DNA of 64,000 nucleotides from the NCBI RefSeq assembly GCF_000817785.2, contig NZ_JTCM02000003.1, forward strand, positions 62,001 through 126,000, written 5' to 3'. Under the pieces are notes generated by a model that saw only the letters and a list, made by a program, of their open reading frames with translations, searched no databases and was not told where the DNA came from. The position numbers were made by a program, and so were the translations under genes. This DNA is from Hassallia byssoidea VB512170 (GTDB taxonomy: Bacteria > Cyanobacteriota > Cyanobacteriia > Cyanobacteriales > Nostocaceae). Positions 4,826 through 53,140 of the stretch are shown one piece after another; position 1 is the first letter of the stretch, and each line of letters starts with the position of its first letter.

Positions 4826-4876
4826 ACGATTTTGGATTTTGCGGAAAGTCACCATGCCACATGCGTGACTGTCAGC

Positions 4877-4901
4877 AGAGACGTTCCGTCGGAACGTCTC
4901 T
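4877..4901. repeat. Dispersed hairpin, agacgttcc family (copy 1)
   Basis: Perfect 11-bp arms AGAGACGTTCC around a 3-base loop. Related hairpins occur at 43343-43371 and 63253-63282. Confidence 0.7.
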
Positions 4902-5310
4902 ACGAGAAATTACGGTTTCAATACTAATATTCAGCAATGCCAAAATCTCAAATCTAAAATTGGCAAGTGGCTATTTAATGCTGTTGCGGTCCTTTAGCAT
5001 CACATTGTTTAGCCCAACACCTTTTAAGAAGTTCTATTCGCCAGATGTTGGCAAAGCGATGAGGATTTAATACCAACTTATTATCATGGCTAAATAGGGG
5101 CTGGTTGAGATACTGCCAGAGGGGAAATTTAATCTTGCTGTGTTCTGGGGTCATGGGTAAGGCAAAATATTATAAAAGCGTTGTGGTAGTAGTTGGCATT
5201 TACTATAAAAGATGCTGACTACTGAAGTTCTAGTCAAACATTACACATTATATATTCAATTGTCTTTGTGGCAATTGCGGAATTTTATCACACCGATTCA
5301 AGTATTTTAT

Positions 5311-5351
5311 AGTTTCTGGCTGAGAAGATATATAAAATTGATGGCAGTATA
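5311..5351. repeat. 41-bp diverged direct repeat, copy A
   Basis: Matches 5707-5747 at 35 of 41 positions. Both copies begin AGTTTCTGGCTG and end ATGGCAGTATA. Origin unknown. Confidence 0.6.
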
Positions 5352-5547
5352 CTGAATAAAGAAGGTATAATATTGACTTTATTTAAGATGCGAGCAAAAG
5401 CAGCGCTGATTGTATTGATATCGTCGGGGCAAAGCATTATTGTGGTTTTCAATTGGGTGGAATACATCAAAGAATTTAGGAATTACAGACAAACATATAC
5501 AAATACTGACAAGCATATAGTTCATCCGGATAAGAGTCGATACAATA

Positions 5548-5580
5548 AACCGCTTTGGCTAAACAATAGCCAAGGCGGTT
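5548..5580. other. Strong stem-loop
   Basis: 14-bp stem (AACCGCTTTGGCTA with its complement, one G-U pair) and a 5-base loop. No T-run follows on either strand, so terminator activity is uncertain. Confidence 0.45.
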
Positions 5581-5623
5581 ATAATTAGCGATCGCCAATT
5601 AATCGTTTGTGAGAATTCGTGTT

Positions 5624-5701
5624 ACAATCAGCGCTGACTAGTAATGATTGCCTTTCTTTGCGATGGTGAACCGCAGTCACCGCATCAAGTTTGAGTAATT
5701 T
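5624..5701 (-). pseudogene. Fragment of a flavodiiron (flv1-like) 3' end
   Basis: About 78 bases on the minus strand align closely with the last codons and 3' flank of the flavodiiron gene ending at 13472. It encodes LLKLDAVTAVHHRK, against LLKPDAVTAVHHRK in the intact gene. A 4-base block replaces the following serine codon and shifts the frame, although the original Asn-His-Tyr-stop bases are still legible. The match continues past the stop codon (caatcagcgc in both), so a piece of DNA with flank was duplicated. No other part of a flavodiiron gene is visible nearby. Confidence 0.75.
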
Positions 5702-5706
5702 GCGTA

Positions 5707-5747
5707 AGTTTCTGGCTGGTAGTATCTATAAAAATGATGGCAGTATA
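5707..5747. repeat. 41-bp diverged direct repeat, copy B
   Basis: Second copy of the repeat at 5311-5351. It directly follows the flavodiiron fragment. Confidence 0.6.
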
Positions 5748-5777
5748 ATGCGGCGCACCCGTGTTGCGCGGGAGTGG

Positions 5778-5918
5778 CTAATCCTTGACCGCAACACTTT
5801 TTGCAAGGTAATGGGATGACACTAAGGAATATTGGGTAAGTTTATTAATAATTTGAGCCATTCGGGGGTTGGGGATTTCAAGGCGCATTAAGTCTTGTTC
5901 AGGTGATTTGTACTGCAT
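5778..5918 (-). CDS. Possible 46-aa reading frame or gene remnant
   Basis: Opens with ATG at 5918 and ends at TAG 5778. The product begins MQYKSPEQDLMRLEIPNPRM and has an ordinary, non-repetitive composition, unlike the neighbouring frames. A purine-rich GGAAG abuts the ATG too closely to be a good ribosome site. Not recognised; it may be the start of a decayed gene, given the surrounding debris. Confidence 0.25.
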   Translation of the reverse strand: MQYKSPEQDLMRLEIPNPRMAQIINKLTQYSLVSSHYLAKSVAVKD

Positions 5919-6017
5919 CTTCCTTTAAAGATATAGCTTTTATTTAAAAGATAAATTACGCCTGATGCGAATTAGGATGCACAGGCAACAAAGGTAAGAA
6001 GATAAAAATTACCAGTA

Positions 6018-6123
6018 ATATCAAGTCCGGTTGATTACTTATTATTGCCATGTCTGTTGTCAAATGTCAAAGCTCAAATCCCTCCCTCTCTCTTAATGAT
6101 CAGTCTTTAACCGGACACGATAT
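6018..6123. mobile_element. Candidate 106-bp miniature element with inverted ends
   Basis: Left end ATATCAAGTCCGGTTGA and the reverse complement of the right end ATATCGTGTCCGGTTAA agree at 14 of 17 positions. The same end sequence recurs at 63225-63245 and, in shorter form, at both ends of 43317-43401. No coding capacity. Confidence 0.45.
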
Positions 6124-6209
6124 AATTCACTGCCACTTCCTCATAGTTATGAGCTAGCACCAGTGACCAAGTGCGCGATTGCGTGCACCTGGTCACCGCA
6201 ACTCTTGTA

Positions 6210-9200
6210 TTAAACCGATAAGCTTGTTACCCAACGCTTGACTGCTTCCCGTCCTTGCGGAATTTGGAAATACTCGAAGTGATCGCAATCTAATACTTCA
6301 ATTGTCAGCTTTGGGTAGGCTTCGCCCCTGACACCGCGCATACTAGATAACCCGACAGCAATATCGTTTTGCTCCCCAAATAAGTTGTCAAGAGTTCGAT
6401 CTAGCACCTTCTGCGCGAGTCGGTTGAGACGGTTGCGTTCTGCCTCGCTCAACCGATTCTCTCCTGCCAGCACCAAGTATGGAACATTTGACGGCTCTTT
6501 GAGGGCATTAAGCTTATCCAGGATAGTAGAGTTGACTTTCAGGTCGATAGAGCCAACACCTTCCTGGTAAAGCTGCTCTAACAACCAGTTGAACGCCCCC
6601 AACGGTGGAATAACCGAAGCTTGATTGACAACTACCGTGAGCAGATAGACCATTCCCCGACCAAGCGTGGCGAGTGTCGAGCCATTGTTGGGAGGACCTG
6701 CCATTACCAACTTATCAACAAATTCGTGACCGCCTGAAAGCTCGATCGTGCAGCGAGAAACCAGGCAGCCCATACTGTGGGCGTAGACGTGAACGGTAAT
6801 CTGGTCGTCAGGACCGAAGCCACATTGCTGCTGTAAGGCTAGAGCTAGTTTAGCGCCATTCTCTTCGACGCTCGTACCAAACGTCTCGTAGTCCCAAGTT
6901 AGTAGATGCTTGTAAGGGAAAACCTCATCGCGCAGAAAAGGAGCAAAGGTTTCGACCATCTGTCTAGTGTCTGCGGTGAATCCGTGGACAAAAAGAGCTA
7001 CCGTATCACCTGGTTGGAACTGGTTTCGCTGAATATCGCGGTACTCAACCTTCTTGCCATCAACCAGTTCTGCACGCCGCAGACCTATCTGTGGGGTGTA
7101 GCGACCCATCTTTTTATAAACAAAGAGCTGGATGGTGCTCCCGATGTCGCGCTTAGTAGGTAAACCCTGAGCGTCAGTAGAAACTACAGTTGGCGGTAGG
7201 GTCACTACATCCACCGCGTTCTTCTCCTTAGCGGCATAGCCGACTGGCAGGTAGTCTTCGCCATCAAAGGCTATGGGCAAAAGGTCTGCTACTTGCTCGT
7301 TGGCAACGGTTGGCAATTCCAAGCGTAGCGGGTTCTCCCGTGTGATACTCTGGCGCGATGTCTCGTCCACATCAAAGGAGATGACAAGCGCTGAAGAGCC
7401 AAAACTGCTATCAATACTACGTGTTCCCGAACGTCCAATAGGTTGAAAAAGGTCTGGGAATCGGTCAAGACCAGGTGGTAGCTTTAAACTGGGGTTCCCA
7501 GATATACTCCGAGTGGCTTGACTCCAAGTGGTTACAGTAACTTGACCCTGAAAACCTTCAGGCTTAATTAGTGTGAGTTCATCGTTCAAGCTAATAGTTT
7601 CGGCTGGGGTATTCAGCGTTCTTGTTTGGAAACCACGCACGACAGTAACAGAAAGAGAGGTTGTTGCCCAGTCTTCTAGGTCTTCTGTTTCAGCAGAGCC
7701 AGCGAAGCGCTTGCCAGAAAGAACACAATCTAAGAGTCGCTCTAAAGGAGAAGAAGAAGCTGCTCTCGTTCTTTGAGGGGGTTGAACGTTTAGCTTTTTC
7801 TGCTCCAACCCCTTGAAATCAGTGGGGTTAGTTGTAACAATAACTTTCAAATAATCCCGGCAGGAATCCCATCCTCCAGGCAAGGTGAAGTTTAACCGCT
7901 CTTTCCGGTTGTCGAGACCGATGATAAGCTTGCCACCATTCCGTTCAATGGGATCTTTTTGACCCAATTGTGGATACTGAAGTTTGATACTGTAATCAGG
8001 ATTCAGAAGCAAAAGGTGAGCATAAATGGGTTTCGACGATTCGTTAATCACCTCTAGAACGTACCGATTAGAGTCTTTGTCTTCCTGATCTAAGGTAAGG
8101 GTGATTTCCCCACCTGTGCCAACAGCGCCTGTGGGAAGTTCTTGCGTCTGAGAATCATCAGCACCCTTTACATCATAACGAAGTAGGCGGAGTTTTACCT
8201 TGCCTACTAGCTCCGATTCCGGCTCTTTATTATCAAGGCTCTGGAGAGTGCGGTAGCGAACAATACTTTCTAAGGAATGAAGTACGGCTATCTCATCACC
8301 GCCCCCATCTTTGATGTCTTCTGGAACGACTAGCTGTTCACGCGTGGAGTTGTAGATGTTCAACTTCCCATCAACAGCCTTAACTCGCAAATCAGCTACT
8401 TGATCGCAATTTTCTAGCACCTTCAAGTAAGGTGAACCGCTACCCAAATTTGCATCAAGGATTGCTTGACGCAAACGTGCGATCGCCTTCTGGTTTTCTT
8501 CCCCTGGATCTGCTTCTAGAGCAAGTGTCTGGTGCAGCCCAGCATAAACTTGTTTGGTGATCAGACCACGGGCGAAAATGGGAATAGAGACAATATTAGC
8601 ACCCTCCTTGATGCTTGCAAGGGCTGTGGTTGCTGAAACTGAGGTAACTTCGACTGTAGCCAGAGGCGCGGGCAAATCCTTCTTAGTACGCACTTCGGGT
8701 GGATAGAGAGCCAGTTCAGTGCCCTTATGCAACCCATGTATCAAACCAGCATCCAGAGTAACTTCATTTTCCTCTACCTTCTGCACGGTAATGAAGGGGT
8801 CTCGCTCGACCCGCACTCCTCCAAAGACCTCTCGGTTGCGATCGCCCTCACACTGGGGCATCTGTGAAGGATATTGTGTATTCACCTTAGCTGCTACCTG
8901 CTCGTAGAGGTCTGCATATGTGGTCTTTGGGGTCATTTGGCGCAGAGCTTGCAAGGTGAAGTAGGTCAGCGCACCATGCCATACTCTGTTCCCTTCATCA
9001 GGGCTGAAATATTCGTTCGATAATTCGTGGTCGCGACAACCTGCGAGGAGGACGTGGGTGATACCTTCGGTTGCCCAGCCACTCGCACCCGTCCCTCGAC
9101 GGGGTGCGCCTTCTAGGATGCCAGTATCCAAGTCAGGTGGTGGGATGCGATTGTCGGGTTCAACATTGCGGGTTTGAGCCAGATTTGGATCGCGAGTCCC

Positions 9201-9668
9201 CGAACCGGAATGGCAACAGTCGAGAATTACAGTAATATTATTACCCTTGCGCTCTGCAAGTTGATCCAGCAAAGCAGCAAGGGTCTTATCAGGGATATCA
9301 AAAACCTCTGGAGTTCTACTGTCATGGGGAACGAGAGTTTCGTTTTGTCCGTCAGGCTCTTTCCGGTTCACCATTTGAGAACCATGACCACTGTAATGAA
9401 AGAAAATTTGGCTTCCTGGCTGAATGTCTGGATTGTCGATGAAAAATTCCTTAAAGGTTTGAAGGATATTAGTGCGAGTCGCCTCTTGGTTAGTCAAGAC
9501 ACGGATCTGATTTTCGGGAACACCCAGTTGATTTATGAGGTAAATCCGCATTGCCTTAACATCATTGACGCAGCCATTAAGGTTTTGAATATGCAGGTAT
9601 TCATCAATGCCAATTAGCAGCGCCCATAGGGAAGAACCATTGGTGACATGAAGTTGTTGTGCAGTCAT
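6210..9668 (-). CDS. Metacaspase-like (C14) protease fused to an alpha/beta hydrolase
   Basis: 1152 residues. Residues about 12-290 form a caspase-fold domain: SLWALLIGIDEY opens it, the catalytic His is H95 in YSGHGS and the catalytic Cys C152 in DCCHSG, as in metacaspases and orthocaspases. A central region (about 300-860) is a beta-rich linker of the kind found in cyanobacterial caspase proteins. Residues about 890-1152 are an alpha/beta hydrolase: oxyanion-type LFVHGFTADTR, nucleophile S965 in AHSMG, probable Asp D1102 (QNDIAV) and His H1130 (DCDHFEYF). No signal peptide, so probably cytoplasmic. A GGAG sits 7 bases before the ATG. It lies 98 bp downstream of a CHAT-TPR gene on the same strand, probably one operon. 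A plausible reading is a protease whose activity frees a lipase or esterase, but no substrate is visible. Confidence 0.9.
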   Translation of the reverse strand: MTAQQLHVTNGSSLWALLIGIDEYLHIQNLNGCVNDVKAMRIYLINQLGVPENQIRVLTNQEATRTNILQTFKEFFIDNPDIQPGSQIFFHYSGHGSQMVNRKEPDGQNETLVPHDSRTPEVFDIPDKTLAALLDQLAERKGNNITVILDCCHSGSGTRDPNLAQTRNVEPDNRIPPPDLDTGILEGAPRRGTGASGWATEGITHVLLAGCRDHELSNEYFSPDEGNRVWHGALTYFTLQALRQMTPKTTYADLYEQVAAKVNTQYPSQMPQCEGDRNREVFGGVRVERDPFITVQKVEENEVTLDAGLIHGLHKGTELALYPPEVRTKKDLPAPLATVEVTSVSATTALASIKEGANIVSIPIFARGLITKQVYAGLHQTLALEADPGEENQKAIARLRQAILDANLGSGSPYLKVLENCDQVADLRVKAVDGKLNIYNSTREQLVVPEDIKDGGGDEIAVLHSLESIVRYRTLQSLDNKEPESELVGKVKLRLLRYDVKGADDSQTQELPTGAVGTGGEITLTLDQEDKDSNRYVLEVINESSKPIYAHLLLLNPDYSIKLQYPQLGQKDPIERNGGKLIIGLDNRKERLNFTLPGGWDSCRDYLKVIVTTNPTDFKGLEQKKLNVQPPQRTRAASSSPLERLLDCVLSGKRFAGSAETEDLEDWATTSLSVTVVRGFQTRTLNTPAETISLNDELTLIKPEGFQGQVTVTTWSQATRSISGNPSLKLPPGLDRFPDLFQPIGRSGTRSIDSSFGSSALVISFDVDETSRQSITRENPLRLELPTVANEQVADLLPIAFDGEDYLPVGYAAKEKNAVDVVTLPPTVVSTDAQGLPTKRDIGSTIQLFVYKKMGRYTPQIGLRRAELVDGKKVEYRDIQRNQFQPGDTVALFVHGFTADTRQMVETFAPFLRDEVFPYKHLLTWDYETFGTSVEENGAKLALALQQQCGFGPDDQITVHVYAHSMGCLVSRCTIELSGGHEFVDKLVMAGPPNNGSTLATLGRGMVYLLTVVVNQASVIPPLGAFNWLLEQLYQEGVGSIDLKVNSTILDKLNALKEPSNVPYLVLAGENRLSEAERNRLNRLAQKVLDRTLDNLFGEQNDIAVGLSSMRGVRGEAYPKLTIEVLDCDHFEYFQIPQGREAVKRWVTSLSV

Positions 9669-9766
9669 AATTTATCTCCTGAAATTCGCAAGTATTTTCC
9701 GCTGATTTAAGTTCTTGAGTTTGACCAATCTACTTCCCAAAGGAAATGGGTGAGAGCGTGTGCAAC

Positions 9767-12652
9767 TTATGCAGCTTTTTGAAAGATAGATTGCGATGCT
9801 TCGCCAATGAGTGTAAAAGCAGCCCAATTCAGTGGGTTGGGATGTTTTTCCTTAATCGTTAGCATCGCTTGGCGCAGGGCTTGGGCTTTGTTATCGCCTC
9901 GTTGTAGATTTTGATAAAACTCAACCATGAAGGAGGCAGTGGGAGCATCTGGAACTGACCACAGTGATGCAATCACACTTGGAACGCCTCTAGAAATAAA
10001 AGAGCGAGATAAGCCGATAACACCATCCCCGGTTAATCGTCCCTGTCCAGTGTTACAAGCACTCAGAACAACTAACTCAGCTTTTAGCATCTTTAAATTC
10101 ATGATTTCTGTAGCTGTAAGCCAACCATCATCTGTTCCTGACGGCGCTAAAGCGATCGCTCCTGGCACATTTAATTCATCAGCGTCATTGAGTAACCCGT
10201 GAGTTGCTAGATGAATAATCCCTGCTGTTGGCATCCGCTCGATAATAGCAACCTTAGTTGCTTCATCGCCTATAAATGCTTCGGTATTTAATAGGGGAGC
10301 GATTTGTCTGGCTTCTCTTTCTGCACCCGGAAGAGGAATCAACTGATGAGATTTAAAAAGCGGCATAATTGGATTACCTACCACCAATACATCCTGAAAC
10401 CCCACCTCTTGAACTCGTTGCTGGTGTCGGCGAGTTCGTTCTAGAACTTGGATGGAAGGAGCGGTGAGGATGGTGTGTTGTTGAATTAAATATTTACCTG
10501 AAGTATCTTGGAGAGCTGGGAAGGGAACAAGAAATAGGCTATTTTGGGGGATAAAAATGACCCGCTCATCTGCATCTTTTGGCAAAAGGTCAGCGATAGG
10601 TTCGATCAGGATTTGATAAAGTTGCTGTAATTGTTTGTTGTTTCCTTGAACAATTTCGTTATCACTATCCTTCCCATCTGAGTCAACAAAGCGCGTTCCC
10701 CTAACACCAATACATTGACGGGCGATCGCAACCAGATCTTCCAGAGATTTATTAAATTCCTGCAATAAAGGTTTGAGGTCAACTAGGCGAAAGGCAATTT
10801 CTCCAGTCGGTTTGATAACCCAAATTAATAAAGTTCTAGACCACAAAATAGAATATTCAACCAGTGTGCTATTTTGCTCTTTAGCAATTTGTTGAATCTG
10901 CTGGAGAGTGGGAGAAGTGATTTCTCTTTTTTCAGCTAATTGCCCCTCTAAGTCCTTGCTCAATAACTCTACGAGCGCCCTAGCTCGACCGCGTTCAGCA
11001 ATTTCCAAAGCAGCCAAGGGTTTCTCCTGGTCAATGAGGGCAGCTTGCAGTAGCTGGTAAGTTTTGGCTTGCTGCTCAAAGATTGATACTTTAAAGTCAT
11101 CACGGTCTTCCAATTTCCCCCGTACAGATTCCCAGAGCTTAATTCCCTCGCGCAGGTTGCGTTCTGCTTCCTCAATTTGACCTAAGTAGAGGAGAGCAAC
11201 TCCTATATCAGTTAGAGTACTCGCTTCCCCAGAATAGTTTCTAACTTCCCTCATGATTCCCAAACTCTGCTTGAACTCATTCAGAGCTTCGGTATATTTG
11301 CCTTGTGCAAGATAAATGCCTCCCCCAAAGCCAATAGAACCTCCTTTACCAATCTGATCCCCTAGTCTCTCCTTAAGTGTCAAACTCCTTTCGTTGTACT
11401 CCCACGCCCGATCTAAATTTCCTTGGTAATAGTAAATTTCAGCTAAAGCTTGTCGAGCATTGGCTTGCCCCTGTTCTTCACCTGTATTCTGAGCAATGTT
11501 CAAACTTTCTTGATAATTTTTTTCCGCTTCAGCTAAGTACCCTTTAACCGTGTAATAACTTCCCAGACCTTGCAGACTACGTACCTGCAACCAGCAAGCA
11601 TAATTACTATCTATTATTGTCTTGGCGATCGCCAAACTCTGCGAGTAGTAATTTTTCGCTTTCTCTTTCTGCAAGTGACCCAAGCCATCGTAACTCCTTC
11701 CCAGATCAAATAAAGCTTTAGCCTCTAAAAGGCGATTATTTAAATTTTTGGCAATGGTCAAAAGTTTATTGTTGCACTCTATTGCCTTGGCATAATTGCT
11801 CGTGTAGTTGTAGGAATCTTGCAAATGCTCTAGAGCATCCAGCTCTCCTTGGAGATTACCTGTTTCTTGGAAGATGACTTTAGCTTGCTCATAACGCCTA
11901 ATTGCCTCAGGAAAATTCCTCCCCTGTCCTGGAGCCCAATAATGAGCTTTTCCTATACAGGTTAGAGCAACTGCCTCTCCGTGACGATAGCCTATCTCAA
12001 GAGCAATTCCTAAACTCCTTGTGCAGATATCTATAGCTTTGCCTAAGTCCCAGCTATAGGGAGGATTATGAGATTGTCCTAAAGTATTGAGAATATCTAC
12101 AAGTAGTTTCTTACCAGCTTCGCCATCTATCTGTTCGGCGATCGCCAAACTCTGCTCGTAGTGATTTCTTGCTTTGTCTAAATTTCTTAAGCCTTGATAA
12201 TCAATTCCCAAATCGAATAGAGTTTCAGCCTCCAAAGAGCGATTTTTAAAGCTTTGCGCGATAACCAAAAGCCGCTTGCTTGACTCTATCGCCTTGGCAT
12301 ACTCATTTGTGTAACGGTAAAACAAACGTATATAGTACAGAAGCATCATTTCTATTTGCTGATAGCTTCTTTCCTGGCAGATTGTCAAAAGCTGCTCGTA
12401 GCAATTTATCGCCTTAGAAAACTCCTGACTTTCAAAGTTAGCATTTCTCAGGGTAACTAACAGATTAAAGACGACAATCTTTATTAAGCGATCGGAGGCT
12501 TCTGTGTAATTTCTTATTGCCAGATTTGTTGCATAATCTAGCATTGTTTGTACCAACCTAGCATCTATCAAGTTTTGGTTGGCTTGCAAAATAGCTGGTT
12601 CTTCACCATTAGCACAGTTTAGCAGCGCTTCAATCAGTTCTTCGTTGTCCAT
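9767..12652 (-). CDS. TPR repeat protein with C-terminal CHAT (caspase-like) protease domain
   Basis: 961 residues from the ATG at 12652, chosen because GGAG lies 10 bases upstream; an open frame reaches 12736 but lacks a ribosome site. Residues about 40-560 are tetratricopeptide repeats (for example EAETLFDLGIDYQGLRNLDK). The CHAT domain fills about 640-961, with the catalytic pair H818 in LATHGLLN and C866 in LSACNTGQGR. CHAT domains belong to the caspase/separase clan; some cleave gasdermins or CRISPR-associated targets. The TPRs probably sense or bind a partner. It is the first gene of a likely operon with the metacaspase-hydrolase. Confidence 0.92.
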   Translation of the reverse strand: MDNEELIEALLNCANGEEPAILQANQNLIDARLVQTMLDYATNLAIRNYTEASDRLIKIVVFNLLVTLRNANFESQEFSKAINCYEQLLTICQERSYQQIEMMLLYYIRLFYRYTNEYAKAIESSKRLLVIAQSFKNRSLEAETLFDLGIDYQGLRNLDKARNHYEQSLAIAEQIDGEAGKKLLVDILNTLGQSHNPPYSWDLGKAIDICTRSLGIALEIGYRHGEAVALTCIGKAHYWAPGQGRNFPEAIRRYEQAKVIFQETGNLQGELDALEHLQDSYNYTSNYAKAIECNNKLLTIAKNLNNRLLEAKALFDLGRSYDGLGHLQKEKAKNYYSQSLAIAKTIIDSNYACWLQVRSLQGLGSYYTVKGYLAEAEKNYQESLNIAQNTGEEQGQANARQALAEIYYYQGNLDRAWEYNERSLTLKERLGDQIGKGGSIGFGGGIYLAQGKYTEALNEFKQSLGIMREVRNYSGEASTLTDIGVALLYLGQIEEAERNLREGIKLWESVRGKLEDRDDFKVSIFEQQAKTYQLLQAALIDQEKPLAALEIAERGRARALVELLSKDLEGQLAEKREITSPTLQQIQQIAKEQNSTLVEYSILWSRTLLIWVIKPTGEIAFRLVDLKPLLQEFNKSLEDLVAIARQCIGVRGTRFVDSDGKDSDNEIVQGNNKQLQQLYQILIEPIADLLPKDADERVIFIPQNSLFLVPFPALQDTSGKYLIQQHTILTAPSIQVLERTRRHQQRVQEVGFQDVLVVGNPIMPLFKSHQLIPLPGAEREARQIAPLLNTEAFIGDEATKVAIIERMPTAGIIHLATHGLLNDADELNVPGAIALAPSGTDDGWLTATEIMNLKMLKAELVVLSACNTGQGRLTGDGVIGLSRSFISRGVPSVIASLWSVPDAPTASFMVEFYQNLQRGDNKAQALRQAMLTIKEKHPNPLNWAAFTLIGEASQSIFQKAA

Positions 12653-13471
12653 TGTTTTATTGCTCCTTAGTGTTGTAAACTCAGTTAATATTCCCTCTTG
12701 CATAAATACCAAAATGCCAGGTGGGACGGGTTGCAATTATCTGCTAAAATCCAACTTTCACTTGTGGAAAAAAACAGGTAGAATGAAACTGCTTCTTCAG
12801 GTCATCTATAACGTCAATGTAAATACCTCCTAGTTTTTTGATTATTTTTTGTGCAATCTGTACACACCTACAAATGCAAAAATGGTAATTTCGGAAAACA
12901 TGTTATTTGAAAAGTAAATATAATTAATTGGCGTTTAGACTAGTTACCGATGCAAAACTCCAAACCTTTACGGCAATTGATGTACATCAAATATAAGCGC
13001 ACCCACCCAAAACTTGAGTAGGGTTTTCATAGTACCTTTGAACTAAAAATGCCCCCAGAGCAATCAAGGATGCGATCTAGGGGAGAGTTGGGATTTTATC
13101 GTTAGGTTGGCTGGGGAATTCTCGCTCAGAATTTAACTATTATTAGTCGAAAAACTCTCAACAAAAAAATATCACCTTTTTGTTTGAACTTTTTACTATC
13201 AACTAAAAATGAATTTAATCAAATATTAGACTATCAAAAATAGCGAGTAAAATAGTTAAACCTAAATTTTTTATAGTGATATAGTTTACACATACAACTA
13301 TTGATTATTAACAAAGTTTTATATCTGATTTGTTCAACAGTTTCGCACCGGTAACTAGTCTAAACACCAAAAATTAATATGAAACGAAGTAATGGATAGC
13401 AATTTTGGGACAGGAGTAGGGATAAGGGCAAAACCTTTGCCCTTTCTCCCAATAAGTGCAATCAGCGCATC
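12653..13471. other. Intergenic region upstream of the CHAT gene and downstream of flv1
   Basis: About 820 bases without a gene. The first 270 should contain the promoter of the CHAT/metacaspase unit. The middle is the inverted-repeat-bounded element at 12930-13368. A 9-bp hairpin (13424-13444, arm AAGGGCAAA) lies just past the flv1 stop; it lacks a T-run. Confidence 0.55.
12930..13368. mobile_element. Candidate MITE with 30-bp terminal inverted repeats
   Basis: The two 30-bp ends (12930-12959 and 13339-13368) are inverted copies with 27 of 30 matches. They share GTTTAGACTAGTTACCG. The 439-bp interior is AT-rich and has no open frame of note. Flanks are AT-rich with ATTAAT-like sequence on both sides, but no clean target duplication can be fixed. 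The structure fits a non-autonomous DNA transposon; the transposase family is unknown. Confidence 0.6.
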
Positions 13472-15184
13472 CTAATAATGATTGCCCGATTTGCGATGGT
13501 GAACCGCAGTTACAGCATCCGGTTTGAGTAATTTTCCGTTGTCAACGGTGGCATACACAACCCAGTGATCGCCACATTCCATGCGTTGGTTGACAGAACA
13601 CTCAAGATATGCTGAAGCATCGGTGAGGACTAAACAGCCATTTTCGGCAATTTCTGTAGAAAAGCCGGAAAAGCGCTCTTCACCTGGGGCAAAAGATTTG
13701 CGGAAGTGCTTGACAAAATCTTGTTGATTGCCTTCGGCTAAGATGTTTAGGGCAAACTTACCCCCAGAATACATCAAAGATTCGATCGCTCGGTCTTTGG
13801 CAATACCAACGGTGATTCCCGGTGGGTTGAAGGTGGCTTGCGAAACCCAAGCACCTAACATCGCTGTGGAGACTTCTCCTTGCTTTGCCGTCAGGACGCA
13901 CAGCGAACCGACAATTCGACCTACAGCTTGTTCCACAGGAGTTACAGCTTGTTGGGGCAAACGCAATTTTTTCGCCTTTTTCAAAGTTTGGGCAAAGTCT
14001 GTACCGGTTTCTTCACACTGCTTGAGAATGACATCTGAGGGTTTGAACTTGACGCGCATCGTTTCAAATCCAAACCGATATCCAGCATCGCGAAGTTTCC
14101 CTTCTATTAAATCAAATGCTTCGCCACTCCAGCCATAGGAACCAAAGACACCGGCGAGTTTGCTGTTGTCACCAACGCCGAGGACAAGACCTAAAGCTGT
14201 TTGTACTGGGGTGGGTGCGTGTCCACCAAGAGTAGGAGAACCGATGATAAAACCATCTGCCTTTTCCACAGCAGCGCGAATTTCATCAGGTTCGGCAAAT
14301 TCGCAGTTGATTGATTCTACCGCGACACCACCTTTAGTTAATCCGAGAGCGATCGCTTGCGCTAAAGTTGCTGTATTGCCATAAGCTGAAGCATACAATA
14401 AAGCAACTGTTATCTCGCGACTCGTTTGTGAATGACTCCATTCTTCATAAGAATTGATCAGTTCGACAACACCGTAACGCACCAAAGGTCCGTGACCGGT
14501 GGCTATCATTCTCACTTGCAGTTCTGATAGTTTCTCCAAAACTGCTTGTACGTGAGTTGCATGAGGCGCCATCAAACAGTCATAATAATACCGCTGATCT
14601 TCTTTTAAAGCTTCGCGGTTTTCATCAAAAACTTGCTCCCCACAGATATGAGTTGCAAATAACTTATCTGTGTAGAGAATTTGCGTTTGTTGGTCGTAGG
14701 TACAAAGACCGGCGGGCCATCTTGGACTAGGTGTCGGAACAAATTTTAAAACATGACCCTTACCTAAATCTAAAGTTTCTTTCCCCCGCATGACGATGAT
14801 TTTTAAATCTCGGTCTGGGAAAGTAGTACGCAAATCTCCCGCTGCTGGTAACGAACAGACAAAAGTAATTTGCGGTGCAACTTCTAACAGCGCTTTGAAA
14901 GTGGCGATACGGTTAGGACTAAAGTGACCTAAAATTACATAATCCAGCTTTTTAAAGTCGAGAGAATGCCGCAATCCTTCCAGAAAAATGTCAGTGAAGG
15001 TTTCTGCTGGTGGGTCAACAAGTGCAATTTTATCACCTTCGATTAAATAGCAATTGGAAGTTGTACCTCTTTCCAATGCATATTCAATTTCAAACCGCAG
15101 ACGCGACCAGCTACGCGCTCTCATTACTGTAGTGTTTGTGGCGATCGGTAAAACTTGAACGTCACGGGGTTTGGAATCGCTCAT
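13472..15184 (-). CDS. flv1: Flavodiiron protein Flv1-type (diflavin flavoprotein)
   Basis: 570 residues in three domains: metallo-beta-lactamase-like (about 1-260), flavodoxin-like (about 265-405) and flavin reductase (about 425-570), the extra domain of photosynthetic flavodiirons. The iron-ligand motif is degenerate: where Flv3 has HTEPDH this protein has H87-FSPNR, so Glu, Asp and the second His are replaced by Ser89, Asn91 and Arg92; HWPD is replaced by RWPA. That pattern marks Flv1-type subunits. With Flv3 it reduces oxygen to water with photosynthetic electrons, protecting photosystem I, or nitrogenase in heterocysts. No Shine-Dalgarno is evident. Adjacency to flv3 resembles the heterocyst Flv1B/Flv3B arrangement of Anabaena, but vegetative versus heterocyst type cannot be settled here. 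Confidence 0.9.
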   Translation of the reverse strand: MSDSKPRDVQVLPIATNTTVMRARSWSRLRFEIEYALERGTTSNCYLIEGDKIALVDPPAETFTDIFLEGLRHSLDFKKLDYVILGHFSPNRIATFKALLEVAPQITFVCSLPAAGDLRTTFPDRDLKIIVMRGKETLDLGKGHVLKFVPTPSPRWPAGLCTYDQQTQILYTDKLFATHICGEQVFDENREALKEDQRYYYDCLMAPHATHVQAVLEKLSELQVRMIATGHGPLVRYGVVELINSYEEWSHSQTSREITVALLYASAYGNTATLAQAIALGLTKGGVAVESINCEFAEPDEIRAAVEKADGFIIGSPTLGGHAPTPVQTALGLVLGVGDNSKLAGVFGSYGWSGEAFDLIEGKLRDAGYRFGFETMRVKFKPSDVILKQCEETGTDFAQTLKKAKKLRLPQQAVTPVEQAVGRIVGSLCVLTAKQGEVSTAMLGAWVSQATFNPPGITVGIAKDRAIESLMYSGGKFALNILAEGNQQDFVKHFRKSFAPGEERFSGFSTEIAENGCLVLTDASAYLECSVNQRMECGDHWVVYATVDNGKLLKPDAVTAVHHRKSGNHY

Positions 15185-23223: not shown

Positions 23224-23642
23224 GGCATAGGCATTTGTAAAGAACGAATAATTATTGCCCAAATATCTTTCGCTTTACTTACAGAGTCAGCAGCTTTGAA
23301 AATGGGTTTAGAGATTTCAGTTAACTTTTCGTCTTCGAGTTGTTCGTCAATGGCAACAAGAATATTGTTGATTTCTGTGCTTTGCTGTTCCGCAGCATGA
23401 TTAATTTTAGCTGGTAATGGTCCTCGACTCCGGATTTTGCTATTTGCGTTTAAAGATTCGTGAATTTGTTCGTAGTAAGTTGCAAGCGGCGGATAATTCA
23501 TCGCAATATCATACAGTTTGTCAATATCCGCCGGAATGTTAATATTATTTACCTGCGCTTGCACATCATCTGGCAAAGGTGCGTCAAGCTGGTAAAGTGC
23601 CAAAAGAAAAGCTTTGAGTTCCGAGGCTTCTAAAGGTTGCAT
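23220..23642 (-). CDS. Small helical protein of the CHAT operon, unknown function
   Basis: 140 residues, no recognised family, no membrane segment or signal. Residues about 5-65 (SELKAFLLALYQLDAPLPDD) have the look of a small helical adaptor domain, possibly of the effector-associated kind, followed by a charged region and a C-terminal amphipathic helix. The ATG overlaps the end of the CHAT gene by 13 bases, and its stop overlaps the next ATG by four (ATGA), so all three should be translated together. It may link protease and membrane protein, inhibit one of them, or be the cleaved substrate. None of these can be told from sequence. Confidence 0.75.
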   Translation of the reverse strand: MQPLEASELKAFLLALYQLDAPLPDDVQAQVNNINIPADIDKLYDIAMNYPPLATYYEQIHESLNANSKIRSRGPLPAKINHAAEQQSTEINNILVAIDEQLEDEKLTEISKPIFKAADSVSKAKDIWAIIIRSLQMPMP

Positions 23643-26560
23643 GATAAATTCCCAGTAATTGTAAAAGCTGCCCAGAAATAAGGGTGATTATAAGGTTTAT
23701 TATTTGGTTCGGTTGTATTCTTAATATTGTTTAAATGGCGTGACAAAAAACGGTAAACTATGCCTTCATCTTCCGGAAGTTGGGCGATTTGAGCTGCATA
23801 CCATTCTGCAAGTTTGGCGTTTGTGACATTTCGCAACCATTGAGTAGCTTTAGCCAAAGCTACAATCTCTGATTTTTCTTGTTGCAGCAGGTGGTAAAAT
23901 TGAATCATCACCAAAGCGCTGGCGGCTGATTCTACAGTCCACAGCGTACTGACGACATGCGCCACACCGCAACTCATAAAGCCACTGACAAGCCCGACAT
24001 ATTCGGTGGTGATGGTATGATTACCTGCGATCGCGCTTTCGCAAGCTGCAAGACTAACGAGTTTGTAACTTCTCAAATCAAAGTTGCAAATATCGGTAAG
24101 AGTCAGTTTATCTTCACCCGCTAAAGCCAAGTGAGATAAAGCCGGATTGTGAAAATTGTATTCCCCATGTCCTGTAAAGTGAAAAATACTGTGTTTTTCC
24201 GGCAAAGCAGTTATTAGTGCTTCTTTTGTCGCTTGGTTAGAGGAAAAGCGAGTGGGTTTGAAGAACATCCGGTTTATCGCTTCCGATTCAATTTGGGCAA
24301 ATTGCAGCGAGGGATAACCTTTGCTGTTGGGATGTTCGATGCTAAGAAGGGGAGTGGGGAATGGGGAGTTGGGAGTGGGGAAATTCTTCTTGTCTCCTTG
24401 TCTTTGTATCCCCGTGTCATCTTTGTGTGTCTGCTGTAAGGTTATGCCAATTTGAGCGCTGGGTAGATAGGTGATGGTGAAGCGATCAAGAAACAGCGCA
24501 TGGAGAGGAAAGCGGTGTAAGTCGCGGTGAGGAACTAGGATGAGATTTTGGATTGATTGGTTGTTAATTGCCGTCAAAATAGCGGAGATATCAAGAATAT
24601 CACCCAATTGGCGAAGCATTTCGGGCAAGTTGTCGCGCCATGTTCTTTCTTCTTCGCCCTGCTTATCTTTGCCTTTGCGATAATCGGCATATTGTTCATT
24701 CCACTCTTTCACCCAGTCTTCAAACTCGCGCAAGCGTTGCGTTTGGCTGAGAAACTGGGTTTCTCCTAAGATGATGGGTGATGGTGCGTTGTGTTTGAGG
24801 ATGAAAGTGTGTAGGGCGTAAGGGCTAATATGCCAGTAAACAACAGCAGTTGTAGAATTGAGCAACTGTTGCATATCTGAGTCGCTGGGGGAGGAAATTT
24901 CATCACTCCACGCAGACAAAAGCCAACTTAAACAAGCATTTTTACCCTGTTCTGCTAATTCAACTGCTTGCACCAGATTCCCAGACTGCACCGCTAAATC
25001 AACAGTCAACTGTTGAAAGCCTGCAAACTTGAAAGTTAGTTGTTTTTTACTTTCATTAGAACGATTTGCTTCACTCAGCAAGCGGCGTAACAAATCTGTA
25101 CCGCGTCGCTGAAGTTCTTCCGCTTTGGCGGTTTCTCCCAAATTCAACAGAACACGAATCAAGTCTCGCAAAACCTCTAGATGCAACTGGGGAAAATCTG
25201 CTTCTGTAAGAGTTTTCAGCGCCTGATTGTAGCTTCTAACAGCTTTGTACCAATAAACGCGGGGGTAAGAATCTCCTAGCCCTCGGAAGTAGTGAGCATT
25301 ACCTATATATTGATGCAACTTACCCCAACCTTCTGGGTGCGTGTCTTGCTGGCAATACTTCAAACCTTCCTCATAGCTTGCTAATTCTCCCTCATAGCCG
25401 CGCTGATTGAGGCTTGGATTTGTCTGTACTATGCCAATTAACAAACTCGGTAGCTGATTATAACTAACTGATTTTTCTGCCGCAATGCCCCGGTTTAACC
25501 AAGCTTCGTAGAAGTCAGGTTCAATTTTTATGGCTTTGTCGAACGATGCGATCGCATCTTCATACCGTTGCAAGTGATCGCATAGCACAGCACCCCGGTT
25601 ATTCCAAGCTGAGTCGTAGTCAGGTTTAATTTCTATAGCTTTGTCGAATGATGCGATCGCCTCTTCAAATCGTCCTAAGTCACCCAGCGTAACACCCCGG
25701 TTAATCCAAGCTGAGTCGTAGTCAGGTTTAATTTCTATAGCTTTCTCGTAGGATGCGATCGCTTCTTCATATCGCCCTAAGTCATACAGCGCCACACCCC
25801 GATAGCACCAAGCTAAGTCATCATCAGGTTTAATTTCTATCGCTTTGTCGTAGGATGCGATCGCTTCTTCATATCGCCGTAAGTTAAACAGCGCATTACC
25901 CCGGTTATACCAAGCTAAGTCATTATCAGGTTTGATTAAGAGTGCTTTGTCATATGATGCGATCGCATCACTATGTCGCCCTAAGTCATCCAGCGCCACG
26001 CCCCGGATTAACCAAGCTGAGTCGTCGTCAGGTTTGATTTCTATAGCTTTGTCATATGATGCGATCGCACCTGCAAAATCACCAGCCATAAGTTGCTCAA
26101 AGCCTCGTTTGAACAATGCTTTTACCTCTCCCTCCTCTCCCTCCTCCGCGTCCTCTGCGCCTCTGCGGTTCGTTTCTCCCCCCCTCAACAACCGCATCCC
26201 AATATCACGCGCCACCTCTCCCACATCCCCAACATCCAACTCACCCAACTGCACCATCCGCGCTGCTAACTCCGCATTCAGTGCATTTGACACTAACAAT
26301 CTTTCACCAAAACCCCGCAACCACTCCACCAAACCAGCCTGAGCGATTTTGTTTGCATCCAAAAAGCCTCTTACCCGTCGCCGACTCCAGCCGTCATTCA
26401 CCCCAGCCAAAAGTTCGAGAAACAACGATTCATACTCTGCATCTGTCGGCTGTTTTCGTGGTTCTACGGGCGTGTGTTTCCCCAACGGTGGAGATGGAGA
26501 CTTGCTATTAAATAAGCGCACTAAAGATTTTTTGAGCCACCGCCAAAGCCGCTTGAGCAT
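23630..26560 (-). CDS. TPR protein with C-terminal CHAT protease domain, first gene of a three-gene operon
   Basis: 976 residues from ATG at 26560, which has AAGG 9 bases upstream; the frame also offers TTG at 26569. Residues about 40-125 form a helical module (ESLFLELLAGVNDGWSRRRV) common at the start of cyanobacterial TPR proteins. Residues about 145-380 are six nearly identical TPRs (AWLIRGVALDDLGRHSDAI type). The CHAT domain ends the protein with H798 in FTGHGEYNF and C840 in LAACESAIAG. Two stretches look like repeat DNA read in frame: NRRGAEDAEEGEEGE (about residue 130) and RQGDKKNFPTPNSPFP (about 720). It overlaps the next gene by 13 bases. Confidence 0.92.
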   Translation of the reverse strand: MLKRLWRWLKKSLVRLFNSKSPSPPLGKHTPVEPRKQPTDAEYESLFLELLAGVNDGWSRRRVRGFLDANKIAQAGLVEWLRGFGERLLVSNALNAELAARMVQLGELDVGDVGEVARDIGMRLLRGGETNRRGAEDAEEGEEGEVKALFKRGFEQLMAGDFAGAIASYDKAIEIKPDDDSAWLIRGVALDDLGRHSDAIASYDKALLIKPDNDLAWYNRGNALFNLRRYEEAIASYDKAIEIKPDDDLAWCYRGVALYDLGRYEEAIASYEKAIEIKPDYDSAWINRGVTLGDLGRFEEAIASFDKAIEIKPDYDSAWNNRGAVLCDHLQRYEDAIASFDKAIKIEPDFYEAWLNRGIAAEKSVSYNQLPSLLIGIVQTNPSLNQRGYEGELASYEEGLKYCQQDTHPEGWGKLHQYIGNAHYFRGLGDSYPRVYWYKAVRSYNQALKTLTEADFPQLHLEVLRDLIRVLLNLGETAKAEELQRRGTDLLRRLLSEANRSNESKKQLTFKFAGFQQLTVDLAVQSGNLVQAVELAEQGKNACLSWLLSAWSDEISSPSDSDMQQLLNSTTAVVYWHISPYALHTFILKHNAPSPIILGETQFLSQTQRLREFEDWVKEWNEQYADYRKGKDKQGEEERTWRDNLPEMLRQLGDILDISAILTAINNQSIQNLILVPHRDLHRFPLHALFLDRFTITYLPSAQIGITLQQTHKDDTGIQRQGDKKNFPTPNSPFPTPLLSIEHPNSKGYPSLQFAQIESEAINRMFFKPTRFSSNQATKEALITALPEKHSIFHFTGHGEYNFHNPALSHLALAGEDKLTLTDICNFDLRSYKLVSLAACESAIAGNHTITTEYVGLVSGFMSCGVAHVVSTLWTVESAASALVMIQFYHLLQQEKSEIVALAKATQWLRNVTNAKLAEWYAAQIAQLPEDEGIVYRFLSRHLNNIKNTTEPNNKPYNHPYFWAAFTITGNLSCNL

Positions 26561-26618
26561 TTGCCGCAACCTTGTATCGCTTTATTTCGTGTATTATAGC
26601 GATTTTACTGAAAGGCAA

Positions 26619-51796: not shown

Positions 51797-53140
51797 TCAC
51801 TTAGTCTGAGGTCGTAGTCTTTCTAGTTCAGCCCGTTGTCTTTCTAGTTCAGCCCGTTGTAGTCTTTCTAGTTCAGCCCTTTGAGCGGGAGTTAAAACAG
51901 CTTCCATTTGTTGTCGCAATCGTACGAAGATTTGCTGCAATTGAGTGACCTGTTGTGGAGTAAACTTTATAGCAGCAATAGCTTCATAACTAGACTTACC
52001 AGCTGACAGCGCTGCTTTGATTTGTGCGTTTTGCTCTTTTGTCAGCACTTGCTCAATTTGCTTACGGACGTTAGCACGAATTTGCTCAATTTGAGTTTTT
52101 TGTTGTTGTGTAAGTGAAATGCTTGGTACAAGTAAAGTAGGGGAAATTGTTGGACTTCCTATCTCAGCAGCTGTTCGGATTCTAGCAATAGTTTCCCTTA
52201 AGTTTTCATTTGGACGTGTAATTCCTAAGAAAAAGTTGTCATTTGCTATTGGTACAGGTGAAGTAGGGGAAATTGTCGGTTTTGCTATTGGGGTGGGAGG
52301 GGGAGTATTAGTAGCAATAGAAACTGGATTGAAAGAAAATTCGCCAATTAACGAAGAAGACTCCCAAGGTCTTTGCTTCTTATTTGTTTCTTCAAATACA
52401 CCTTGCCGAACTTTTTTAAATAATTGTTCTATAGTAATATTTGGAATTTTAATATATTTTAATAAATAAGAAGTAAAAGTACCATTTTTACTTTCTCCAT
52501 CAGATGCAACTCCTCCTGGTGCAGTAGCAAAAGCAATATAAAAACCTGACGCTGTTTGTATAGGAGCTAAACCTCCTGCGGCAGTGCTTCTCTTCCATCT
52601 TCTGCTAAATGGATTATTACGACAAGCATCTAAAATAATGATATTGGCATCTGTTTTTGAGTCTTCCATTATATTTTGTACTTTCCCAACTGGAAGAGCT
52701 TCATAACCAACATCTTTCTCTGTAATCAGTTTGGCATCTGTCGGAACTAAATAGTTTTCTCCATCGACTTGAAGTCCATGCCCTGCATAGTAAAACATTC
52801 CGACACTACCTTGAGCTAATTTAGAATTAAATTTCTCTAATGCAATCTCCATTTGTTTTTTATCAGCATCTAAAACTTTGATTACATCAAAACCAAGCTC
52901 TCCCAAAACTTTACTCATATCTTCAGCATCATTTCTCGGATTATTTAATTCCATTCCTGGTAAATAATGACTGTTACCAATAACTAATGCCACACGTTTT
53001 TGGCTGGCAACAGCTAGTAATTTTTGAGCAGGAGGGAGAATTTGAGATTGCGCTTGGTTAGTTGGTACAAAGAATATATAAAAGGTTAATGGTGTTAGTA
53101 TAATAGCGCCGATGGGTAAAAGCGATTTATAAGAAAACAT
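51797..53140 (-). CDS. Exported caspase-family (C14) protein with LTXXQ-like helical tail
   Basis: 447 residues. An N-terminal hydrophobic segment (about 8-26) acts as signal peptide or anchor. Residues about 48-275 form the caspase domain: ALVIGNSHY, catalytic H121 in YYAGHGLQ and C173 in LDACRNNPF. After a proline-rich linker, residues about 345-445 are helical with repeated LT-x-x-Q elements (LTQQQKTQIEQIRANV; FTPQQVTQLQQIF; LTPAQRAELE), like the Spy/CpxP-type periplasmic helpers. The final tail is a RAELERLQ repeat. Location is probably periplasmic. Confidence 0.9.
   Translation of the reverse strand: MFSYKSLLPIGAIILTPLTFYIFFVPTNQAQSQILPPAQKLLAVASQKRVALVIGNSHYLPGMELNNPRNDAEDMSKVLGELGFDVIKVLDADKKQMEIALEKFNSKLAQGSVGMFYYAGHGLQVDGENYLVPTDAKLITEKDVGYEALPVGKVQNIMEDSKTDANIIILDACRNNPFSRRWKRSTAAGGLAPIQTASGFYIAFATAPGGVASDGESKNGTFTSYLLKYIKIPNITIEQLFKKVRQGVFEETNKKQRPWESSSLIGEFSFNPVSIATNTPPPTPIAKPTISPTSPVPIANDNFFLGITRPNENLRETIARIRTAAEIGSPTISPTLLVPSISLTQQQKTQIEQIRANVRKQIEQVLTKEQNAQIKAALSAGKSSYEAIAAIKFTPQQVTQLQQIFVRLRQQMEAVLTPAQRAELERLQRAELERQRAELERLRPQTK

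Follow-up and report, generated by a model that had tools for sequence, protein, structure and literature searches.

The stretch analysed here (the window) comprises 64,000 nucleotides of Hassallia byssoidea VB512170 (contig NZ_JTCM02000003.1, positions 62,001 to 126,000), and its minus strand carries a pair of protease genes, a TPR-CHAT protease gene (9767..12652) followed by a gene in which a caspase domain is fused to an alpha/beta-hydrolase (6210..9668). The TPR-CHAT gene encodes 961 aa, with its ATG at 12652 and its stop codon ending at 9767. An alternative version of 989 aa, starting from a TTG at 12736, was also listed, but the ribosome site AAGGAG 10 nt ahead of the ATG at 12652 favours the 961-aa form. 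The fusion gene encodes 1152 aa (ATG at 9668, stop codon ending at 6210) and is separated from its neighbour by a 98-bp intergenic gap (9669..9766, minus strand), which holds the ribosome site AGGAG (9676–9680), 7 nt upstream of the start codon, and in which no minus-strand terminator-like site was found. Both open reading frames (ORFs) are real and lie where a preliminary description of this DNA had placed them; its report of two caspase-clan proteases 98 bp apart, the second fused to an alpha/beta-hydrolase, is borne out by the ORFs and by Pfam, as are the strong ribosome sites and intact catalytic residues that it ascribed to both proteins.

In addition to TPRs, the first protein contains a CHAT domain (9800..10633, minus strand; Pfam E value 1e-72) with the catalytic dyad H818 (10199–10201) and C866 (10055–10057), a dyad present in 10/10 compared CHAT proteins. 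The fusion protein begins with a Peptidase_C14 caspase domain (residues 15–277, 8838..9626, minus strand; Pfam E value 3e-25) carrying H95 (9384–9386) and C152 (9213–9215). This is followed by a middle region (residues 301–690, 7599..8768, minus strand), the part shared with relatives of ~700 aa that lack the hydrolase, in which a DUF4384-like stretch is possible (hhalign probability 14 %). The Arg840 codon (7149..7151, minus strand) marks the start of the alpha/beta-hydrolase module (residues 841–1152, 6213..7148, minus strand), which contains S965 (6774–6776), D1102 (6363–6365) and H1130 (6279–6281) and matches Pfam DUF7379 over residues 892–1019 (E value 9e-12, 45.8 bits against a cut-off of 33). 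The pair matches the PADLOC caspase (E value 6e-36) and TPR (E value 6e-26) models, while the caspase scores 48 bits on the EACC1-associated caspase model NF047832, below the curated cut-off of 140 bits.

The preliminary description had proposed checking whether the gene pair is conserved, and it is. Close relatives of the CHAT protein (at least 65 % identity, the next ones having at most 52 %) are present in 7 of the 192 genomes of the family covered, the window's included, and in all seven a caspase gene is the next gene after the CHAT gene, at a spacing of −61 to 192 bp. The partner caspases are less uniform. Five of the seven belong to the window's subfamily on our tree (the window, G070, G111, G012 and G022), and only those of the window, G070 and G111 carry the hydrolase. 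The G012 and G022 caspases stop near residue 680 without a hydrolase, and tblastn finds no hydrolase remnant behind either; in G012, similarity continues past the stop (~residue 676) to residue 709, so the protein has been truncated from a longer one. The remaining two partners are a hydrolase-free, distantly related caspase that belongs to the same middle-region family (G119) and a caspase-DUF4384 protein (G004). Within 6 kb of the seven loci, flanking genes are common to the window genome (G000) and G070, which belong to the same genus, and beyond these G111 has one gene in common with G119, and G070 a single weak match (25 %) to G022; the pair thus appears to have been kept while its surroundings changed. 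Among more distant CHAT relatives (41–49 % identity; 19 of the 22 listed were compared), a co-directional caspase gene adjoins within 600 bp in 5/19. With a caspase at 7/7 loci and the hydrolase at 3/7, what is conserved appears to be the CHAT-caspase protease pair, to which the hydrolase would be an optional, exchangeable payload. The closest named relative found is from the cyanobacterium Plectonema radiosum NIES-515 (90 % identical).

Rates of change differ between the parts. Among the window, G070 and G111, dN/dS is 0.22–0.29 for the hydrolase, 0.34–0.41 for the caspase, 0.30–0.41 for CHAT and 0.43–0.51 for the TPR array, which evolves fastest, as might be expected of a sensing part. The caspase of the window fusion is 94 and 89 % identical to its orthologues in G070 and G111 (L071 and L072), and the hydrolase 87 and 92 %; this opposite ranking of the domains hints at recombination between them. 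G111 and G119 have related CHAT genes and caspases on distant tree branches, as though one caspase had replaced another at the same site, and the gene that they share behind the pair (L072, 11824–13023; L103, 8253–9446; 88 %) has no Pfam match.

The caspase-middle-hydrolase architecture is widespread among genomes of the window's family. Further fusions were found in a Mycobacterium, in a Caldilineaceae metagenome-assembled genome (MAG) and in another Chloroflexi MAG, where the gene is cut by a contig end, and plasmid-borne fusions occur in Rhizobium, Deinococcus and Anabaena. At least 8 of 386 genomes in a phylum-wide draw, counting that of the window, contain a relative at an E value of 1e-55 or better, and all of them belong to the window's order; this is an undercount given that two candidates were scored per genome. 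In viral contigs, eight loci match the caspase part only, as does one phage record, and a search of these contigs for the hydrolase part gave no match.

We compared the neighbourhoods of 74 fusions, a non-random set consisting mostly of top-ranked matches from one family of genomes, in which not every listed full-length match is included and from whose counts the duplicates L091–L093 were left out. Genes around the loci are mechanical ORFs, and partners were labelled with small purpose-built hidden Markov models, spot-checked by Pfam: nSTAND1 plus C14 was recovered in 4/4 caspase-nSTAND1 partners scanned (of 26), CHAT in L031, L095 and L101, and CHAT again in 5/7 short-CHAT partners scanned (L062 not among them), with L063 and L064 giving VMAP-C alone. 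A co-directional second caspase-clan gene lies within 600 bp of the fusion in 38/74 loci. Downstream partners are caspase-nSTAND1-WD40 (20), caspase-nSTAND1 (6), short CHAT (6) and CHAT (3) proteins, upstream partners are CHAT (3) and short CHAT (2) proteins, and L066 and L132 have partners on both sides. As a local background, such a gene lies within 600 bp of 26/523 non-caspase genes in these regions (query genes not counted as neighbours), and among the other caspases of the window's genome a raw 2/12 are paired, both being pieces of one split gene (38/74 versus 1/11 own-genome caspases, Fisher p 0.0095, a value that ignores relatedness). At 70 % identity, 13 of 26 clusters hold at least one paired member.

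The partners look like sensors, and nearly all have an intact active-site dyad, which is kept in 26/26 nSTAND1 caspases and 10/10 CHAT proteins and, among short-CHAT proteins, the His in 8/8 and the Cys in 7/8. The plasmid of Anabaena sp. 90 carries a fusion followed by a TPR-CHAT protein 44 % identical to that of the window, in reversed gene order relative to the window; the Mycobacterium partner is a different CHAT protein, and in Rhizobium a CHAT gene belongs to a divergent gene pair and was scored as unpaired. In L063 and L064, the caspase-hydrolase gene is followed by genes for a VMAP-C protein, an AAA protein and a further large protein. A quick tree of 97 caspase-middle proteins, which came with long-branch warnings, implies at least 23 changes of partner label (counting 'none' as a label), against a shuffled mean of 41.6 and with 0/200 shuffles as low, so that both inheritance and exchange have shaped the set of partners. 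The CHAT label requires at least seven changes across well-supported branches, and the window's subfamily forms with the Mycobacterium protein a supported clade of six, all with CHAT. Exchange is seen on the sensor side (CHAT, caspase-nSTAND1-WD40 and VMAP) as well as in the payload (with or without the hydrolase).

Several genes stand close to individual fusions. The genome's second fusion (L075, G000:C45; 1275 aa) has a predicted membrane anchor, and 205 bp behind it begins a caspase-nSTAND1 gene that runs off the contig; both above-cut-off DUF7379 matches in the window's genome are caspase-hydrolase fusions. In L042 (5013–6761) and L078 (5084–6802), a DUF1400 alpha/beta-hydrolase gene, with a weaker PAF-acetylhydrolase match, lies between the fusion and the caspase-nSTAND1-WD40 gene. 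A co-directional gene of ~290–343 aa is found upstream of the fusion in L036, L044, L047, L084, L090 and others; those in L036 and L044 have no Pfam match, and that in L047 encodes a periplasmic-binding protein.

The S965-D1102-H1130 triad named in the preliminary description consists of the residues claimed and is kept in 70, 73 and 72 of 73 aligned fusions, with the caspase dyad kept at H95 in 73 and at C152 in 72. This alignment omits L096 (contig end) and uses P0001 in place of L076, the window's own copy; L058, a 3057-aa ORF trimmed to its last 1400 aa, supplies the C152 miss. The HG of the presumed oxyanion strand is kept in 72/73 and 71/73. With triad and dyad near-invariant and the hydrolase under purifying selection by its dN/dS, conservation goes beyond chance, and the hydrolase is probably selected for catalysis. 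All 28 hydrolase domains of the family that were compared with Pfam at an E value of 0.01 match DUF7379, and further, weak matches are to PGAP1 (23), LCAT (23), palmitoyl-thioesterase (24) and DUF676 (17). Searched against the PDB, the family profile hits mostly lipases (best E value 4e-5), lipase A, triacylglycerol lipases and the phospholipase PlaB among them, and hydropathy predicts a C-terminal membrane anchor behind the hydrolase in 19/72 fusions. Together with the different pairing of anchored and unanchored fusions, these profile matches and predictions suggest that membrane lipids may be the substrate and that the module may be used in two ways.

We propose, with moderate confidence, that the pair is a two-protease signalling module, probably for anti-phage defence or cell death, in which a CHAT sensor would activate a lipase-like caspase-hydrolase executioner. 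Binding of a trigger or partner by the TPR array would switch on the CHAT protease, which may then activate the neighbouring caspase, by cutting or by co-assembly. The active caspase would cut cellular proteins, the fused DUF7379 lipase-like serine hydrolase would attack ester bonds of membrane lipids, and the infected or damaged cell would die or stop growing. Such a division of labour would agree with the putative sensor fusions (TPR-CHAT, caspase-nSTAND1-WD40 and VMAP) adjoining a caspase that has no recognised sensor domain of its own. We infer the order of action and the activation by cutting from the architecture and from precedents, namely protease-gated nucleases and Canu. The preliminary description had conceived of a two-step cascade ending in a lipase or esterase; the conserved pair, the partner dyads and the triad with its lipase-like profiles speak for such a cascade, whereas the hydrolase is not always its end, as 4/7 of the paired caspases lack it. 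More tentatively, we suggest a general form of a lipase-ended caspase cascade, in which a CHAT initiator would activate an executioner caspase bearing its own membrane-lipid hydrolase, with interchangeable sensors (TPR-CHAT, caspase-STAND-WD40 and VMAP) acting on one executioner family. If true, bacteria would possess a counterpart of pyroptosis that breaches the membrane by lipolysis and not by a gasdermin pore.

Known and predicted systems offer partial parallels. According to Kaur et al. 2020, in the passages dealing with VMAP systems, those that bear a caspase always have a neighbouring alpha/beta-hydrolase gene, the two are said to operate together, and proteolysis is proposed to release effectors, with peptidase cascades as analogues (PMC7159879). 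The VMAP/vWA-MoxR ternary systems thus resemble the window pair in combining a caspase-superfamily domain on the sensor side with an alpha/beta-hydrolase gene (PMC7159879). They differ in that the window partner is a TPR-CHAT protein, with no VMAP, MoxR or vWA gene seen beside the pair; the L063 and L064 loci, with their VMAP-C and AAA genes, resemble the ternary type, although Pfam gives no vWA match in either. A hydrolase fused to its own caspase is not stated in those passages, nor does the word CHAT occur in the article's available text, where CHAT may be counted under the caspase superfamily (PMC7159879). As far as that account goes, caspase plus alpha/beta-hydrolase conflict systems were predicted by Kaur et al. 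2020, and the TPR-CHAT/fusion pair is a variant of that predicted kind. A later article lists, in the part concerned with effectors, alpha/beta-hydrolases among those acting on membrane lipids (Kaur et al. 2021, PMC8195603). The same source links caspases to STAND NTPases (nSTAND1 and AP-ATPase systems), which are described there via adaptor (EAD or Death-like) domains (PMC8195603); unlike these systems, the pair has no STAND domain in a Pfam scan.

In Canu and other protease-activated pro-enzymes, a protease lies beside the pro-effector that it activates by cutting, as shown by experiment in the portion of the report concerned (PMC12799240). The Canu effector described there is a metallo-beta-lactamase (MBL)-type nuclease encoded by a separate gene, whereas here a lipase-like domain is fused to the second protease (PMC12799240). 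No Canu-like MBL-type nuclease gene was found beside the window caspase, the upstream ODP-domain gene carrying flavodoxin and flavin-reductase domains. The TPR-CHAT architecture recalls the Craspase protein Csx29, whose model matches residues 672–916 of the window protein weakly (E value 1e-4) and far under its cut-off (21 versus 300 bits). With orthocaspases and metacaspases, the fusion shares Peptidase_C14 with an HC dyad, and the solved structures that it matched are metacaspases. A survey of 473 proteins has no hydrolase in its accessory-domain table, and the word is absent from its main text, as far as the available version extends (PMC8283722). One metacaspase with a GDSL lipase domain, which is a different lipase family, is mentioned in an extract of another article, which also notes multi-metacaspase operons in cyanobacteria (PMC3501461). 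No description of a TPR-CHAT gene paired with a caspase-hydrolase fusion was found in the titles and abstract starts of openly licensed literature, which is weak evidence of absence, and the term DUF7379 was not found in the openly licensed literature searched.

Several observations weigh against the proposed signalling module and its lipid-directed output. No adjoining second protease is found for 36/74 fusions, though 8 of these have one within 2500 bp, Deinococcus included, and one short-CHAT partner is without the catalytic Cys. S965 is lost in L058, L134 and L141, and H1130 in L039. At an E value of 0.01, the window's own hydrolase domain differs from most of its relatives in matching just DUF7379 and Abhydrolase_6, and the window protein has no membrane-anchor tail; an adjoining protease partner occurs in 3/19 anchored fusions versus 34/53 unanchored ones. 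No predicted structure supports the hydrolase fold with confidence: AlphaFold models of the full-length protein (nine sequences) and of the hydrolase alone (five sequences) have a mean predicted local distance difference test score (pLDDT) of 49 and 50, respectively, and Foldseek searches with the low-confidence hydrolase model gave monoglyceride lipases as top matches, one at an E value of 0.001 or better, with low TM-scores. These matches would agree with an alpha/beta-hydrolase fold, but both models, built from sequences of the window and related loci, are too uncertain to judge the geometry of the triad or contacts between domains. In the window, 9/10 scanned neighbours match no PADLOC model, the tenth being another TPR-CHAT protein, and the locus therefore does not look like a dense defence island.

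Part of this evidence would be accommodated if the hydrolase were an accessory, the output of the CHAT-to-caspase cascade being proteolysis and the hydrolase tuning the strength or location of the signal by membrane binding or protein deacylation. Four of the seven caspases that accompany close CHAT relatives have no hydrolase, and hydrolase-free family members have an adjoining partner just as frequently (10/20), which indicates that the pairing does not revolve around the hydrolase; two of these 20 control genes, L104 and L116, are directly followed by short stretches of hydrolase sequence, perhaps as decayed fusions. The loss of triad residues in some fusions and the weak palmitoyl-thioesterase matches of 24/28 hydrolase domains would fit as well. 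However, a triad kept in 70–73 of 73 fusions and a dN/dS of 0.22–0.29 point to selected catalysis, and we regard an accessory role as rather doubtful.

A literal reading of the cascade, with CHAT cleaving the caspase and the caspase then cleaving itself at Arg840 to free the hydrolase as a soluble lipase, appears unlikely. The preliminary description had the caspase freeing the hydrolase by cutting ahead of it, and this part found no support. Arg840, a candidate site, lies at the junction of a short, length-variable linker with the hydrolase module and is R in 71/73 fusions and K in one, and orthocaspases are described, in the part of the source concerned, as cutting after positively charged residues (PMC6426788). 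Yet Arg471, 654, 720 and 750 of the middle region are as conserved, and Arg840 was accordingly dropped as a standout site and kept as a candidate only. In the 19/72 anchored fusions, a cut at Arg840 would leave the hydrolase on the membrane, which means that the family is not generally built to release it into the cytosol, and the models (mean pLDDT 49 and 50) are too poor to judge access to the site. Release at Arg840 is possible and is not favoured by these sequence comparisons.

We consider it very improbable that the two genes became neighbours through shared mobility or by chance and serve separate housekeeping roles, for instance in stress proteolysis, since, even with 53 CHAT and 17 C14 matches in a profile search of the host genome, from which adjacency can arise by chance, and with 36/74 relatives lacking an adjoining partner, all seven close CHAT relatives are paired amid mostly different flanks, the Mycobacterium mechanical ORFs overlap by 49 bp and the repeated changes of partner label on the tree suggest independent pairings.

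The proposed sensor-executioner module bears on an old question, that of initiator-to-executioner caspase cascades in prokaryotes, as here one executioner family with both active sites intact is repeatedly paired with different sensor proteases. Two-gene test objects are available, some of them in named strains (Plectonema radiosum NIES-515 and the Anabaena sp. 90 plasmid). If the hydrolase is a lipase, lipid hydrolysis would be a further means by which bacterial caspase-type proteases bring about the death of their own cells.

Upstream of the pair lie two paralogous genes in tandem, of the flavodiiron type by their Pfam domains; among the seven loci compared, the gene with a beta-lactamase-like ODP domain and flavodoxin and flavin-reductase domains adjoins the pair in G000 and G070 only. 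Downstream is an SDF symporter gene on the opposite strand. As regards a gasdermin gene beside the protease, the ORF list contains no minus-strand ORF of at least 80 aa in 4826–6209, 9669–9766 or 12737–13471, a gasdermin profile search not having been made. In a 77-bp direct repeat (5625–5701 and 13459–13534; 84 % identical, E value 1e-18), one copy is the 3′ end of the gene of flavodiiron type at 13472 and the other a decayed copy downstream of the caspase gene, with the pair lying between the two; a like copy is present in G070 (L071, 7507–7581). The repeat may be the trace of an insertion that entailed a duplication, or else what is left of a third gene in the tandem.

Elsewhere in the window, 23630–26569 encodes a second, more divergent TPR-CHAT protein of 979 aa (Pfam CHAT E value 6.5e-40; weak PADLOC BovA match, E value 2e-9), near which the genome search gave no C14 match. 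Finally, a caspase-family protein of 447 aa is encoded at 51797–53140 (Pfam C14 E value 7e-42), with an N-terminal hydrophobic segment and the motifs YAGHG and DACRN.

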